From Thermoclostridium caenicola (GTDB lineage: Bacteria; Bacillota; Clostridia; DSM-8532): 64,000 bases of DNA. The DNA lies in assembly GCF_900142095.1 (NCBI RefSeq), contig NZ_FQZP01000005.1:1-64000 (forward strand), written 5' to 3'. Every line of letters starts with the position of its first letter. The stretch's first letter is position 1. A program made the position numbers and the translations under genes. Shown piece by piece: positions 1-46,869 of this stretch. The notes beneath the pieces are model-generated. The model searched no databases and was not told where the DNA came from. It saw nothing but the letters and a program-made list of their open reading frames with translations.

Positions 1-311
<311 letters not shown>

Positions 312-40462: not shown

Positions 40463-41149
40463 CTAGGAATCAGTTTGCCCTGCCCTGTATCCCATGCCCC
40501 GGACTGTCTGGATAATCCGGGGATTCTGGGGATCATCCCCGATCTTTTCCCGTAAGCGCTTGATGTAAACCGTCAGCGTGTTGTCATTGACAAAATCCCC
40601 CGCAACATCCCAGAGCGCTTCAAGGAGCTGACTGCGGCCAAGGATCTGTCCCTTGTTCCTGGCAAAAATCAGCAGCAGCCGGTATTCCAGGGCGGTCAGG
40701 ATGATCTCCTTTCCTGCCTTGTAGACCTTGGCGCGGGCAGTGTCTATGGTGATGTCGGAGATTTCATAAACCGTCCTGGCCTGATCTGTCCTGCCATACC
40801 TGCGGGTAACCGATTTGATGCGGGAAATCAGTTCCCTGATGCGAAAAGGCTTGGTGATGTAATCATCAGCACCCATGTCCAGCCCCATGACCACATTCAC
40901 CTCATCGTCAATGGCTGTCAGGAATATTACAGGCGTATCGCCCTTTGCCTTGATCAATCGGCAAATATCGTATCCACTGCCGTCGGGAAGGCCCAAATCC
41001 AGAAGCGCCAGATCAAACCGGTTTTCCTGGATGGCTGCCCTGGCCGATTCCACGTCAAGGAAATGGATGACTTCATAACCCTCCTGCCGGAGGGAATAAC
41101 ACAAACCGTCCGCAATGATCCTGTCGTCCTCAACAAAAAGTATTCTCAT
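40463..41149 (-). CDS. OmpR-family response regulator (BceR-like)
   Basis: 228 residues: receiver with DD (8-9), Asp51 in LALLDLGLPDG, Lys in ITKPFRIREL, and a winged helix (ILTALEYRLLLIFARNKGQI, LTVYIKRLREKIGDDP, VRGMGYRA). The start MRILFVEDD is preceded by a moderate AGGTGA site. First gene of the module; expected to bind the inverted repeat before the ABC genes. Confidence 0.93.
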   Translation of the reverse strand: MRILFVEDDRIIADGLCYSLRQEGYEVIHFLDVESARAAIQENRFDLALLDLGLPDGSGYDICRLIKAKGDTPVIFLTAIDDEVNVVMGLDMGADDYITKPFRIRELISRIKSVTRRYGRTDQARTVYEISDITIDTARAKVYKAGKEIILTALEYRLLLIFARNKGQILGRSQLLEALWDVAGDFVNDNTLTVYIKRLREKIGDDPQNPRIIQTVRGMGYRAGQTDS

Positions 41150-41316
41150 ACCTGAAGTATCACCTTTGCCATGATGGATTAACAATAGCATAAACGCGCC
41201 CGGATTGCCACCTCAGGTTCGATGGCCGCTGCCCTTGATTCCAAGAAATTATACCGACTCCTGAAGCAAAAAGTTTCACCCCGACCAAGCTTTTGCATCG
41301 CCGACAAATAAGATGC

Positions 41317-41379: not shown

Positions 41380-42204
41380 TTACAGCACCTTTGACAGGAA
41401 CTCCCTGGTTCTGGGATGCTGCGGGTTATTAAAGAGTTCCTGGGGCGTATTTTCCTCCACAATCCTGCCTTCATCCATGAAGATGACCCGGGTGGCCACC
41501 TCCCTGGCAAATCCCATTTCATGGGTGACGATGACCATGGTCATGCCTTCATCGGCCAGCTGCTTGATCAGATCCAGCACTTCCCCTACCATCTCCGGGT
41601 CCAGGGCCGAGGTGGGCTCATCAAACAGGATCACCTTCGGGTTCATGGCCATGGCGCGGATGATGGCGATCCTTTGCTTTTGGCCGCCCGAAAGAGTGGA
41701 AGGATAAACGTCAGCCTTTTCCTCCAGGCCTATTCTTCTCAACAGGCGCAGGGCGTTCTCCCTGGCCTCCTCCTTGATTTTCTGGGGTGTGGTGTCGATT
41801 TCGTAAAGGGGTGTTTTGTGCTTTGAAAAAGCATTCTTTATCCGGATAAAGAAGTTTTGCAGCTTCTTCATGCGCAGATCATGGATGGCCAGGTACACGG
41901 GCGCCAGCATGATGTTCTCGATAACCGTCTTGTTGTTGAACAGGTTGAACTGCTGGAACACCATACCCATATGACGCCGGTGGATATTGATATCCACGCG
42001 CATGTCCGCAATGTCCACGCCCTCGAAGATGATGGAGCCGCTTGTAGGATCCTCCAGGCAGTTGAGACAGCGCAGAAAAGTGCTTTTCCCGCTTCCGGAA
42101 GGGCCTATGATAGCCACCTTTTCGCCTTCCTTGATGGTGGTGGTGATGCCTTTCAGCACCTCCAGCTTACCGAAGCTCTTTTTCAGGTCAATTACGTCTA
42201 TCAC
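41380..42204 (-). CDS. Polar amino acid ABC transporter, ATP-binding protein
   Basis: 274 residues, GlnQ/ArtP-type. Walker [11 protein letters not shown]-loop MVFQQFNLF, signature [14 protein letters not shown], Walker [15 protein letters not shown]-loop THEM. It carries an insertion of about 30 Lys-rich residues (roughly 112-145, from [13 protein letters not shown]) between the Q-loop helix and the signature region; family members are usually about 240 residues. Overlaps the permease gene by 17 bases. Last gene of the operon, followed by a terminator. Confidence 0.94.
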
Positions 42205-42898
42205 TTTTTCTCAGGCTCCTTTCCATGATCTTGACGAGAAAAGCGATAGCCATGACAAGGACGATGTAGATCAGCGCCATCGCAAGATAGGGAACCATGA
42301 ACTCATAGCTGTTGGTGCCGATATAGTTGAAAGCCACATACAGATCGGCGGCTCCCACAAAGCTCACCACTGACGTTTCCTTGATCAGGGCGATGAACTC
42401 GTTGCCCAGGGTGGGAAGGATGTTCTTGACCGCCTGCGGCACCACAACCTTCATCATGGATACGCGATAGCTCAGGCCAAGGGCACGCGCTGCTTCCATC
42501 TGCCCGGGATCAACTGAAAGGATACCGCTTCGCATGATCTCGGAAACATAAGCTCCGCTGTTAAGCCCAAAAACCAGCACGCAGACATTGAGGGCCGGAA
42601 GGTTGATGCCAAGCAGGGGCAGCACCACGTAATAGGCTACCAGAAGCTGCACCACCACGGGCGTTCCCCTGAACAAGGCTACATAAAACCGGCAGAACCC
42701 GTTCAGGATCCTTGGCAGCCGCTTATACTTCGGAAAGACTTCAATAATGGCGATAATGGTTCCAATGACGATGCCGATGGCAAGGCCCACAACGGCAATA
42801 TACACCGTGTTCTTGAGTCCGGTCAGCACCCTTTGGTAGCCATCGTATTCGTAGAATATTTCCCAAAATCGTTCCAGCTTTCTTGAAAAATTACCCAT
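42188..42898 (-). CDS. Polar amino acid ABC transporter, permease
   Basis: 236 residues, HisM/GlnP-like, with five membrane segments. It has the EAA-loop region ([23 protein letters not shown]) that docks to the ATPase, and [11 protein letters not shown] upstream, both family hallmarks. A single permease suggests a homodimer. Preceded by an intergenic hairpin that separates it from the binding-protein gene. Confidence 0.95.
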
Positions 42899-42986: not shown

Positions 42987-43826
42987 TTATTTCATATCGT
43001 TGAAGGCCGCGGCTATCCTGTGGGCAGGCGCCTCGTCTATCACCACAAAGTCGATGTTGCCGTTGAGCATGTCCTGGACAGCCAGGGAACCGGATTTGTA
43101 ACCGACCACTTTGACATTGTAGCCTGGGAATCCCCAATCCGGATCGCCTTCAACATAGAACTGACCGGTAGTGCCGTTCTGCACGCCAACCTTGGTGGTG
43201 CTGGGCAGGCTGTTCAACACGGCTTCCACGTCCTCTGTCGTCTTGCAGTTGTCGAACCTCTTGTCGTTGGCCTTGACGATGATCATCTGTGCCGCATCAA
43301 AATACTTGTTCGAGAAGTTGACATATTCCTTTCTGTCTTCCCTGATGGTCAGACCGGCCATGGCGATGTCCGCCTTGCCCTGACCTACCGAAAGGCATAC
43401 GGCATCAAAATCCATGTTGCTGATGACTAGTTCCTTGCCCAGATAGTCGGCAAGAAGCTTGGCGATTTCCATGTCGATACCGTAATACTTATCGCCTTTC
43501 ATGTATTCGAATGGCTCAAAGGCGGCGTTTGTTGCGACAACAAGCTGATCCTTGGTTGGATCAAGCTCGGCAGAGGTGATGGGTACCGGCTCGCCGTTAC
43601 CATAGTTGTTGTTGATGATCTGATCGAGCGTACCGTCCTTCTGTATCTTGGCGATAAACTCATTCACCTTTTCCAGCAGCTCCGGCTGGTTCTTGTCAAC
43701 GCCGAAGGCATACTCTTCCTGGGTCAGCGGGATATTGATCACCTTCACACCGGCGCCTTCGCCGCAGCCGGCCAGCAATACCGCCATTATCACAATGGTC
43801 AGGATCAGTGCCATTATCTTTTTCAT
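42987..43826 (-). CDS. Amino acid ABC transporter substrate-binding lipoprotein, circularly permuted
   Basis: 279 residues with signal peptide and lipobox LLAGC (Cys at about 21). Right after it come about 50 residues (IPLTQEEYAFGVDKNQPELLEKVNEF..., DGTLDQIINNNYG) that in the SBP_bac_3 family normally form the C-terminus. Then, from about residue 80, the usual N-terminal start follows (LVVATNAAFEPFEY, YYGIDMEIAKLLAD, FDAVCLSVGQGKADIAMAGLTI, YVNFSNKYF, VGVQNGTTGQFY) and the protein ends at IDEAPAHRIAAAFNDMK. Thus the fold appears permuted. ATG chosen for GGGGAG upstream. Ligand: a polar amino acid; an ARG-box-like pair upstream hints at arginine. Confidence 0.92.
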   Translation of the reverse strand: MKKIMALILTIVIMAVLLAGCGEGAGVKVINIPLTQEEYAFGVDKNQPELLEKVNEFIAKIQKDGTLDQIINNNYGNGEPVPITSAELDPTKDQLVVATNAAFEPFEYMKGDKYYGIDMEIAKLLADYLGKELVISNMDFDAVCLSVGQGKADIAMAGLTIREDRKEYVNFSNKYFDAAQMIIVKANDKRFDNCKTTEDVEAVLNSLPSTTKVGVQNGTTGQFYVEGDPDWGFPGYNVKVVGYKSGSLAVQDMLNGNIDFVVIDEAPAHRIAAAFNDMK

Positions 43827-44423: not shown

Positions 44424-45416
44424 TTAAATCATACGTGAGAACAGATCACGCAGATCATCCTGATACTGTTCAGAAACATGATTTTGGACTGCTTCCCATA
44501 CCGATTCGCGGTTATAGGGGATGTCGACAAGACCCTTTTCCAGGGAGATAAAAGCATCGGCATCCAGGCAGTCGGTATAGATGCGGCAACAGGATATTTT
44601 GCCATGTTGGAGGTTAAGGTTCACGCTGATCTCGCCCCAGGCATAACGTTCCTTCAATTCCACCGAATAGGCCGGGCTTTCCCCGAATATCCAGGCATGG
44701 GAGGCAAGCTCATCCCGGAGAGCCTTGACCTCGGGTATGGCCAATGCCTTTTCCTCGTTGATATGCTCGGCGGGATTTACGGCATCGCCATCCCCGAAAA
44801 CCTCATGAAATGCACGAGTCATTTCCTCTTTCAGTGAAGGAATGGTGATGTTTGCATTGAGCTCCGACAGATTGACCACCCGGGATTTTACCGAAGCGAT
44901 GCCCTTGGACTGAAGCTTGAGCCTGGAGACGGTCAGGTATTGTTTGATCTTGTCATGATCCTCGGCCACAAGCAGCGTTCCGTGATGACAAGCCCCATTC
45001 CGGTGCATGAAGAAGGCGTTGCCTGAGAATTTCCTGTTGTCGATGCAGATATCGTTCCTGCCGGTATACTCGGCCTTAAGGCCGAACTTTTCCAACGCCC
45101 GCAGGATCACCGACAGGTTGCTTTCCACATTCTGCTCGCTCCGATGGTTGATAAAGGAAAAGTTCAGGTTTCCCTTGTCATGGTAAACCGCTCCCCCTCC
45201 TGAAAAACGCCGGGCAATGCGGACGCCGTCCTTTCTCACAAGGTCCATGTCGCATTCGGCATAAGGGTTCTGGTTTCTGCCAATGACGATGGTATTCTCG
45301 TTCTGCCACAGGTACAGGCAGGCTTTCCCTTTCTCGGCGCATCCTGTGAGATAACGCTCCACCGCAATGTTCAGGTAGGGATCGGTGGAATCTGAAATAT
45401 AGACCTTAGTTACCAA
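44424..45416 (-). CDS. lplA: Lipoate-protein ligase
   Basis: Attaches lipoate (via lipoyl-AMP) to lipoyl domains of 2-oxoacid dehydrogenases or GcvH. About 330 residues. N-terminal catalytic domain with NENTIVIGRNQNPYAEC, the RRFSGGGAVYHDKGNLNFSF core and the DICIDNRKFSGNAF segment holding the conserved Lys, then a C-terminal accessory domain. No ATG fits; a TTG at 45416, overlapping the last codons of lpdA, is the likely start, with GGAAGGAG upstream. Co-transcribed with lpdA. Confidence 0.93.
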   Translation of the reverse strand: MVTKVYISDSTDPYLNIAVERYLTGCAEKGKACLYLWQNENTIVIGRNQNPYAECDMDLVRKDGVRIARRFSGGGAVYHDKGNLNFSFINHRSEQNVESNLSVILRALEKFGLKAEYTGRNDICIDNRKFSGNAFFMHRNGACHHGTLLVAEDHDKIKQYLTVSRLKLQSKGIASVKSRVVNLSELNANITIPSLKEEMTRAFHEVFGDGDAVNPAEHINEEKALAIPEVKALRDELASHAWIFGESPAYSVELKERYAWGEISVNLNLQHGKISCCRIYTDCLDADAFISLEKGLVDIPYNRESVWEAVQNHVSEQYQDDLRDLFSRMI

Positions 45417-46869
45417 AATGGATCGCTTCTCCTTCCATATCCAGTATGGCTTCCGATATGGCTTCCGACAGGGTGGGATGGGCATATATAACTTCTTTGG
45501 CCTGATCGATGGTCGTCCGGCAGGTGATAAGGTTTGCGGCCAGGCTGAGCAGTTCCGTGGCATCGGGGCCAACGATGGTTGCGCCGATAATCTCCCGCGT
45601 TGCCTTGTCGGCGATAACCTTCACAAAGCCCGCCGCATCCTGCATGGCTACAGCCTTGCTGTTGGCGCGAAACGGGAATTTGCCCACCAGGACATCCCGG
45701 TTCATGGCCTTGGCTTCCTTTTCGGTATGGCCAATATGGCCGATTTCCGGGAAGGTAAATATGGCGCTGGGAACAAGTTGCTTTTCCAGCCCGCCTGCCT
45801 TTCCCGAGAGCTTTCCTGCGATATGATCGGCTGCAATGATACCTTGATGGGATGCAGCGTGGGCCAGCATCACCTGATTGGTCACATCCCCCGCCGCATA
45901 AACCGTGGGATTGGAGGTCTGCATCACTTCATTGACCAGGATGCCGTTTTTGTGGTCGTTGAGCGCAACCCCCAGCTTTTCCAGGTCGACCGCTTCCAGG
46001 TTTGCCCTGCGCCCTACCGCGACAGCCACCTTTCGGACGACAAGGGACTCCTGACGCTCTTTCCGCTCCATGAGGATCCGTTTATGGTCGTCGGAGGTTG
46101 TTTCAATGGCCAAAGCACGGGCAGACTCAAGAATTTCTATGCCCATCTTCCGCGCGGTTCTTTTCACCGTTGAGGCCACATCGGCATCCACCAGGTTGAG
46201 GATTTGGGGCATAAACTCCACCACATGCACCTTGCAGCCCAGAGCGGCATAGATGAAGGCAAACTCCATGCCGATAACCCCGCCACCGATAATGGCCAGT
46301 GATTCGGGAACCTCACTTAGTTCCAGTAATTCCTGGCTGCCGAGGATATCCGGCGCATCGGCTCCCGGTATGGGCAAGGAGCTCGCCACCGAGCCCGTGG
46401 CCAGAATCAGATTCTTATAGCGAATCCTTTCCTCGCTACCTTCCACGGCAAGCACACCGTTTTCCTCCACGATGGCCTTGCCCTGGATAACCCCGATCTT
46501 GTTCTTTTTCATCAGGAATTCTATCCCCTGCACTAGGGAGGACACGATCTGCTGTTTTCTTTCCCTGATTTTTTCCAGGGAGTACTGAAAACCCTGGATG
46601 GATATACCATAATCCTCGGCCCGGTTGAGCCGGTTTAAAAAACCCGCGATTGAAACCAAGGTTTTCGTTGGAATGCATCCTGCGTTAAGGCAGGTTCCGC
46701 CCAGCCGGTCTTTCTCAATCAAAACGGTTTTCAGGCCGTTTTGGGCACATCGTATGGCAGCAACATAACCGGCCGGACCGCCGCCAATAATGGCCACATC
46801 ATATACCGTCTCTCCTTCCTGGACGGCTTTGTTTATGACATCGCTTTTTACCACAGTGTCGCTGTTCAT
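45406..46869 (-). CDS. lpdA: Dihydrolipoyl dehydrogenase (E3)
   Basis: Reoxidises dihydrolipoamide with NAD+ using FAD and a redox disulfide. 487 residues with a short N-terminal extension (about 20). FAD-binding GGGPAGYVAA, redox-active GGTCLNAGCIPTK, NAD-binding IGGGVIGMEFA, second FAD site YAAGDV, and the interface His-Glu in HPTLSEA. With lplA next to it, it serves a lipoyl-dependent complex (glycine cleavage or a 2-oxoacid/acetoin dehydrogenase) whose other genes are not here. Confidence 0.95.
   Translation of the reverse strand: MNSDTVVKSDVINKAVQEGETVYDVAIIGGGPAGYVAAIRCAQNGLKTVLIEKDRLGGTCLNAGCIPTKTLVSIAGFLNRLNRAEDYGISIQGFQYSLEKIRERKQQIVSSLVQGIEFLMKKNKIGVIQGKAIVEENGVLAVEGSEERIRYKNLILATGSVASSLPIPGADAPDILGSQELLELSEVPESLAIIGGGVIGMEFAFIYAALGCKVHVVEFMPQILNLVDADVASTVKRTARKMGIEILESARALAIETTSDDHKRILMERKERQESLVVRKVAVAVGRRANLEAVDLEKLGVALNDHKNGILVNEVMQTSNPTVYAAGDVTNQVMLAHAASHQGIIAADHIAGKLSGKAGGLEKQLVPSAIFTFPEIGHIGHTEKEAKAMNRDVLVGKFPFRANSKAVAMQDAAGFVKVIADKATREIIGATIVGPDATELLSLAANLITCRTTIDQAKEVIYAHPTLSEAISEAILDMEGEAIHFGN

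Follow-up and report, generated by a model that had tools for sequence, protein, structure and literature searches.

Probable repeated circular permutation among amino acid-binding lipoproteins of Clostridia, as traced from an ABC importer operon of Thermoclostridium caenicola

The stretch of Thermoclostridium caenicola DNA analyzed here (64,000 nucleotides; hereafter, the window) harbors a gene which in all likelihood encodes a true circular permutant of the substrate-binding protein (SBP) of a polar amino acid (PAAT)-type importer, one that keeps the fold and the pocket of its family and belongs to a group of permutants with repeated origins in Clostridia. It is an old permutation with a wide distribution in Clostridia, and further permutants, some cut at the same site and others elsewhere, have emerged time and again in related operons. 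The surprising part is the recurrence of permutation in SBP_bac_3 proteins. Most natural circular permutations happened once, long ago, and have left no intermediates behind; in this one small family with its one operon type, roughly twelve switches of topology, some four sites of cutting, switches as recent as 74–77% identity, and a permuted tandem are seen together.

The encoded protein starts with a signal peptide and a lipobox, in keeping with its first-pass annotation as a secreted lipoprotein. The SBP_bac_3 profile of Pfam (PF00497) matched it with 109 bits (curated cut-off 26.4) in two separate stretches. In alignments to PDB chains, residues 94–268 corresponded to residues 11–171 of 4zv1, an ancestral arginine-binding protein (E 2e-22), and residues 22–76 to its residues 178–232 (E 1.5e-5); the same swapped-order alignment was obtained with 5t0w and 5tuj. 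On an HMM of canonical SBPs, residues 35–83 of the longer ORF mapped to HMM 197–245 and residues 100–286 to HMM 29–197. The first-pass annotation had proposed that the C-terminal segment of the family was moved between the lipobox and the N-terminal part, that the protein ends where this closing segment would begin, and that the permutation is a clean one. All three proposals were borne out, as HMM 197–245 is followed by HMM 29–197 with neither overlap nor gap, and the chain ends at lobe 2, just past its last helix. The displaced front segment contains a lobe 2 strand, hinge 2, and the C-terminal helices of lobe 1. The protein thus carries a full complement of family segments, none of them duplicated, in a rotated order rather than the colinear N-lobe 1-lobe 2-C order, and by homology it would be grouped as a permuted, not a colinear, member of SBP_bac_3. 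Only type II amino acid SBPs were matched, and not the type I sugar-binding fold. A search with the profile of 61 relatives found no full-length colinear PDB match, the best being the tandem GlnPQ construct 6h30, and no solved structure of any member of the permuted family was found in the PDB chain searches. Annotation by Pfam and NCBIfam profiles leaves such a rearrangement of segments unflagged.

Table 1. Features of the window, and cut sites and permease-fused permutants among its relatives
Feature	Position	Strand	Remarks
Circularly permuted SBP_bac_3 lipoprotein gene	42987..43826	(-)	279 aa + stop; protein-coding part 42990-43826
Signal peptide and lipobox (LLAGC, Cys21)	43764..43826	(-)	Cys invariant in the 61-sequence alignment
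Residues 27-76, canonical closing segment placed in front	43599..43748	(-)	4zv1 residues 178-232; canonical HMM 197-245
Residues 77-92, linker from old C-terminus to old N-terminus	43551..43598	(-)	
Residues 93-279, family N-terminus (lobe 1), hinge 1, lobe 2	42990..43550	(-)	4zv1 residues 11-171; canonical HMM 29-197
Polar amino acid ABC permease	42188..42898	(-)	236 aa; BPD_transp_1 / HEQRo_perm_3TM
ABC ATPase	41380..42204	(-)	274 aa; GlnQ/TcyN-like
ATPase insertion	41782..41883	(-)	~34 basic/hydrophobic residues after the Q-loop region
Type A cut	HMM ~196		As in the window protein
Type B cut	HMM ~125		
Type C cut	HMM ~156		
Type D cut	HMM ~136-140		
Permease-fused permutant	L047:4001-5551	(+)	
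Permease-fused permutant	L089:1102-2685		
Permease-fused permutant	L123:2065-3564		
Permease-fused permutant	L129:2635-4167		
Permease-fused permutant	L130:2662-4167		

Structure prediction, suggested as a check in the first-pass annotation, was carried out with AlphaFold2 on the 61-sequence alignment and gave a confident fold (mean pLDDT 91.6, pTM 0.80) in which the order of strands and helices was the canonical one, rotated; the front segment was modeled as a strand (residues 27–30) and two helices (48–63 and 66–75). Foldseek, which aligns in sequence order, matched the model to ArgBP, AncCDT-1, and GlnBP over only ∼173–222 columns, consistent with one piece being out of reach of a sequential alignment. 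The pocket residues were placed by mapping E. coli GlnH on the canonical HMM. With hinge limits of GlnBP which we assume to be 85–89 and 181–185, the hinges lie at HMM ∼114–118 and 207–211 and lobe 2 at ∼119–206. The equivalents of GlnBP Arg75, Asp157, Thr70, Gly68, Phe13, and Phe50 are kept in the window protein, and Asp10, Lys115, Gly119, and His156 are changed to N, Q, T, and I, respectively. R165 and D264, the equivalents of Arg75 and Asp157, which presumably form the α-amino-acid pocket, are invariant in A1. With these residues kept and four others changed, the ligand is probably an amino acid, though not necessarily glutamine.

The gene is followed by those of a permease and an ATPase, confirming the SBP-permease-ATPase operon expected from the first-pass annotation, and the adjacency of a HEQRo 3TM permease and a GlnQ-like ATPase to the SBP gene is that of a PAAT-type importer. 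The same two genes lie next to the SBP gene in nearly every relative locus with a long enough contig. The extra insertion in the ATPase, earlier put at 30 residues, was also found, at the slightly greater length listed in Table 1. It is common to the window clade, where it may be shorter or longer than in the window, and was absent in the permuted sister L148 and in all other permuted and canonical operons checked. Its absence from L148 indicates that the insert is later than the permutation. A response regulator is encoded downstream of the ATPase (40463–41191), and translations of the ORFs upstream of the SBP gene (44424–46869) revealed lipoate-protein ligase-like and dihydrolipoyl dehydrogenase-like genes, an unrelated lipoate module.

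The search for homologs with the same order, also put forward in the first-pass annotation, was run as one scan of GTDB species genomes and yielded 80 loci with 55–83% protein identity. The permuted order was spanned in 79 of them, mostly from Clostridia, the exception (L019) being an N-truncated ORF. The relatives belong to Acetivibrio, Lachnospiraceae (Mediterraneibacter, Dorea, Coprococcus catus), Oscillospiraceae, and one bacillus, Thermobacillus xylanilyticus, and include the isolates Acetivibrio mesophilus, Dorea sp. 5-2, and Mediterraneibacter massiliensis. In the alignment of 61 sequences, the lipobox cysteine and the junction were highly conserved. The Thermobacillus operon (L024:3947-4807, + strand) is of the window type with ∼74% identity and is the sole clear record from Bacilli among the 80 loci; horizontal transfer is its likely source.

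A profile of the junction between the old C-terminus and the old N-terminus was then searched in whole genomes. A spanning match was found in 62 of the 392 sampled genomes of the class, and when the segments of each matching protein were mapped individually on an HMM derived from 27 canonical relatives, all 62 proved to be permuted; one match (L155) was left out, as it consists of two adjacent canonical, unpermuted SBPs. In a phylum-wide sample, five of 381 genomes outside the class gave a spanning match, the permuted tandem L157 included. The cuts fall at about four clean sites, all in loops of lobe 2 (types A–D, Table 1), with L055:6554-7357 classed as B-like by eye, since its end follows an IIVK-type strand, and L149 placed by eye with type D, as it groups with L150. 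Some permuted domains of types A and B are fused in frame to the permease, and in these the lobe 2 C-terminus continues directly into the membrane domain. In one Lachnospiraceae genome, a window-type permuted SBP is followed ∼1.7 kb further downstream by a second, unrelated permuted SBP, L055:6554-7357 (+ strand), whose sister is the canonical L082, the only other SBP_bac_3 protein of the window genome. Type B and type C breakpoints occur together in one well-supported clade (L088 with type B; L086, L138, and L156 with type C), suggesting that a permuted protein was there permuted anew. L157:1912-4176 (+ strand, 754 aa, permease-fused) has the order [lobe 2 + C-terminus][complete SBD][N-terminus + start of lobe 2]. 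Judged from its segments, it represents a circularly permuted tandem whose outer halves would together make up one domain, with a second, complete domain between them, possibly an intermediate form. A plain fused tandem is found in L158, and pairs of adjacent canonical SBP genes in L090 and L155. The tether from the lipobox to the fold was shorter in the permuted forms (median 7 vs 13, p 0.02), a difference that ignores relatedness and is too weak to use.

For phylogenetic analysis, permuted sequences were returned to canonical order and a maximum-likelihood tree of 79 rows was constructed. The label changed between canonical and permuted 12 times on this SBP tree, at least nine times on well-supported (starred) branches; owing to the long branches L154, L157, and L055/L082, the exact number of events is uncertain. 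Type A alone appeared in several places, namely, in the window clade with L148 (100/99, starred), in the L131 group beside the canonical L169 (100/100, starred), in the L144 group beside the canonical L159 (99/93, starred), and in L154. After re-ordering, L131 was 74% identical to L169 and L144 77% identical to L159, each pair sharing the same operon type. With four genomes carrying the L131 group and three the L144 group, neither can be put down to errors in single assemblies.

The window protein would function as the membrane-anchored SBP of a polar amino acid ABC importer. Both old termini, which lie in lobe 1, appear to be connected by the short linker, and the new termini would be located in lobe 2, between the last helix and the strand returning to the hinge. 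Since the two-lobed fold, as predicted, and the amino acid pocket are kept, the permuted protein should bind and close as an ordinary binding protein does, holding a polar amino acid between the lobes and then delivering it to the permease. From the topology, the lipid anchor is expected on lobe 2 instead of lobe 1. The most likely origin is a tandem duplication of the binding-protein gene with in-frame fusion, after which copy 1 would have lost its front and copy 2 its back at the same loop; permutation by duplication is the route described in PMC3320104. The linker of L144 retains TVKEGKLIMATN, which matches the mature N-terminus of its canonical sister L159, TVEDGKLIMATN. Such a route is likely for the window gene, based on this linker match and on a few tandem and permuted-tandem relatives rather than on a caught intermediate of the gene itself.

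Whether anything was gained by the permutations is a separate matter. They could be neutral by-products of frequent tandem duplication, without functional consequence, a view that concerns adaptive value only and shares the permutation itself with the explanation given above; we consider its chances to be about even. No change in pocket or operon separates permuted from canonical sisters, and binding proteins generally tolerate engineered circular permutation, both of which agree with neutrality. The position of the cuts speaks against it, as every one lies in lobe 2 though the search could also have picked up cuts in the N-terminal part of lobe 1 past HMM 46, and under a null of uniform cutting such an outcome has a probability of ∼0.0007–0.004 for 9–12 events. 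Loop structure and folding could explain this bias without selection on the anchor. The adaptive alternative, that a cut in lobe 2 shifts the lipid anchor (or the fused permease) from lobe 1 to lobe 2 and alters docking and substrate release, with tandem duplication as a ready path, is tentatively put forward and seems the less probable of the two.

Also considered was a single ancient permutation that was then inherited and horizontally transferred, recombination having restored or interleaved the canonical forms. In its favor, the window clade is one well-supported group and the type A breakpoint recurs in the same loop, but the differing breakpoints would need further permutation, and fresh permutants adjoin canonical sisters in the same operon type. 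On the SBP tree, AU tests rejected a clade of L131 and L144 (p 3.9e-5), a clade joining these two to the window clade (p 2.8e-6), and a single clade of all permuted forms (p 1.7e-4), these p-values being somewhat optimistic because the groups were named post hoc from the tree. A separate tree of the unpermuted neighboring permease, essentially free of ATPase data since filtering by length and position left 10 ATPases, recovered the same groups, and its AU tests gave a weaker rejection (p 0.006 for all type A; p 0.031 for L131 with L144). Hence, a single origin of the permuted forms was rejected, and we regard it as improbable compared with repeated permutation.

Another possibility is that the front segment is an added element or is swapped between chains (as in a domain-swapped dimer or a tandem relic) and does not complete its own lobe 1. 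The AlphaFold2 model leaves some room for this, having been run, with 61 aligned sequences, as a monomer only; the monomer was, however, confidently modeled at residues 31–80 (block pLDDT 89–98) with a short linker. The chain contains no further C-terminal copy, and tblastn of the protein against the whole window returned only the self-match, with no second copy of this or any other part of it, so that an extra front element with a normal C-terminal copy elsewhere is ruled out and the swap itself is judged very improbable. An assembly or binning rearrangement, conceivable for a window taken from a 125-contig draft, has a negligible chance, since the same order recurs in the 79 independent assemblies described above, isolates among them, with an unbroken frame and a conserved junction.

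A true permutant with repeated origins is therefore the preferred reading, and it may be compared with known systems. Like the canonical type II SBP_bac_3 proteins GlnH/GlnBP, ArgBP, and AncQR, the window protein has a (predicted) two-lobed fold, hinge tyrosines, and the pocket Arg/Asp, and it is encoded in an operon with one HEQRo-type permease and a GlnQ-like ATPase; it differs from them in the rotated order of its segments and in having its termini, and by implication its lipid anchor, in lobe 2. The open-access papers searched contained no account of amino acid (type II) binding proteins being permuted, once or recurrently, and the only natural permutation of a binding protein found in them was that of Treponema pallidum Tp0684/MglB-2, a circularly permuted ABC glucose binder proposed as 'Type Ic / Cluster Bc' (PMC4990184). 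MglB-2 is likewise a natural permutant, a membrane-tethered ABC binding protein with Gram-positive homologs, but it has a glucose-binding type I (cluster B) fold with N-lobe strands at the C-terminus and a fourth hinge crossing, and it was treated as one subclass and not as repeated origins (PMC4990184). In the tandem SBDs of Lactococcus GlnPQ (6h30), the join between the C-terminus of SBD1 and the N-terminus of SBD2 aligns across the permuted junction and thereby shows what a duplication intermediate looks like; GlnPQ differs in having two complete canonical domains fused to the permease. DNA methyltransferases offer a known case of recurrent circular permutation (Jeltsch, 1999; Bujnicki, 2002, cited in PMC3320104); in these and in saposin/swaposin, intermediates support permutation by duplication. 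Their folds are unrelated, and what sets the present family apart is the occurrence of very recent permutants beside canonical sisters in the same operon type. Such natural pairs make the path from duplication to permutation directly testable, as well as lobe 1 versus lobe 2 anchoring in ABC import, and the cut sites proven by evolution are useful for biosensor design. Among natural cases of repeated circular permutation, that of SBP_bac_3 is unusually clear.
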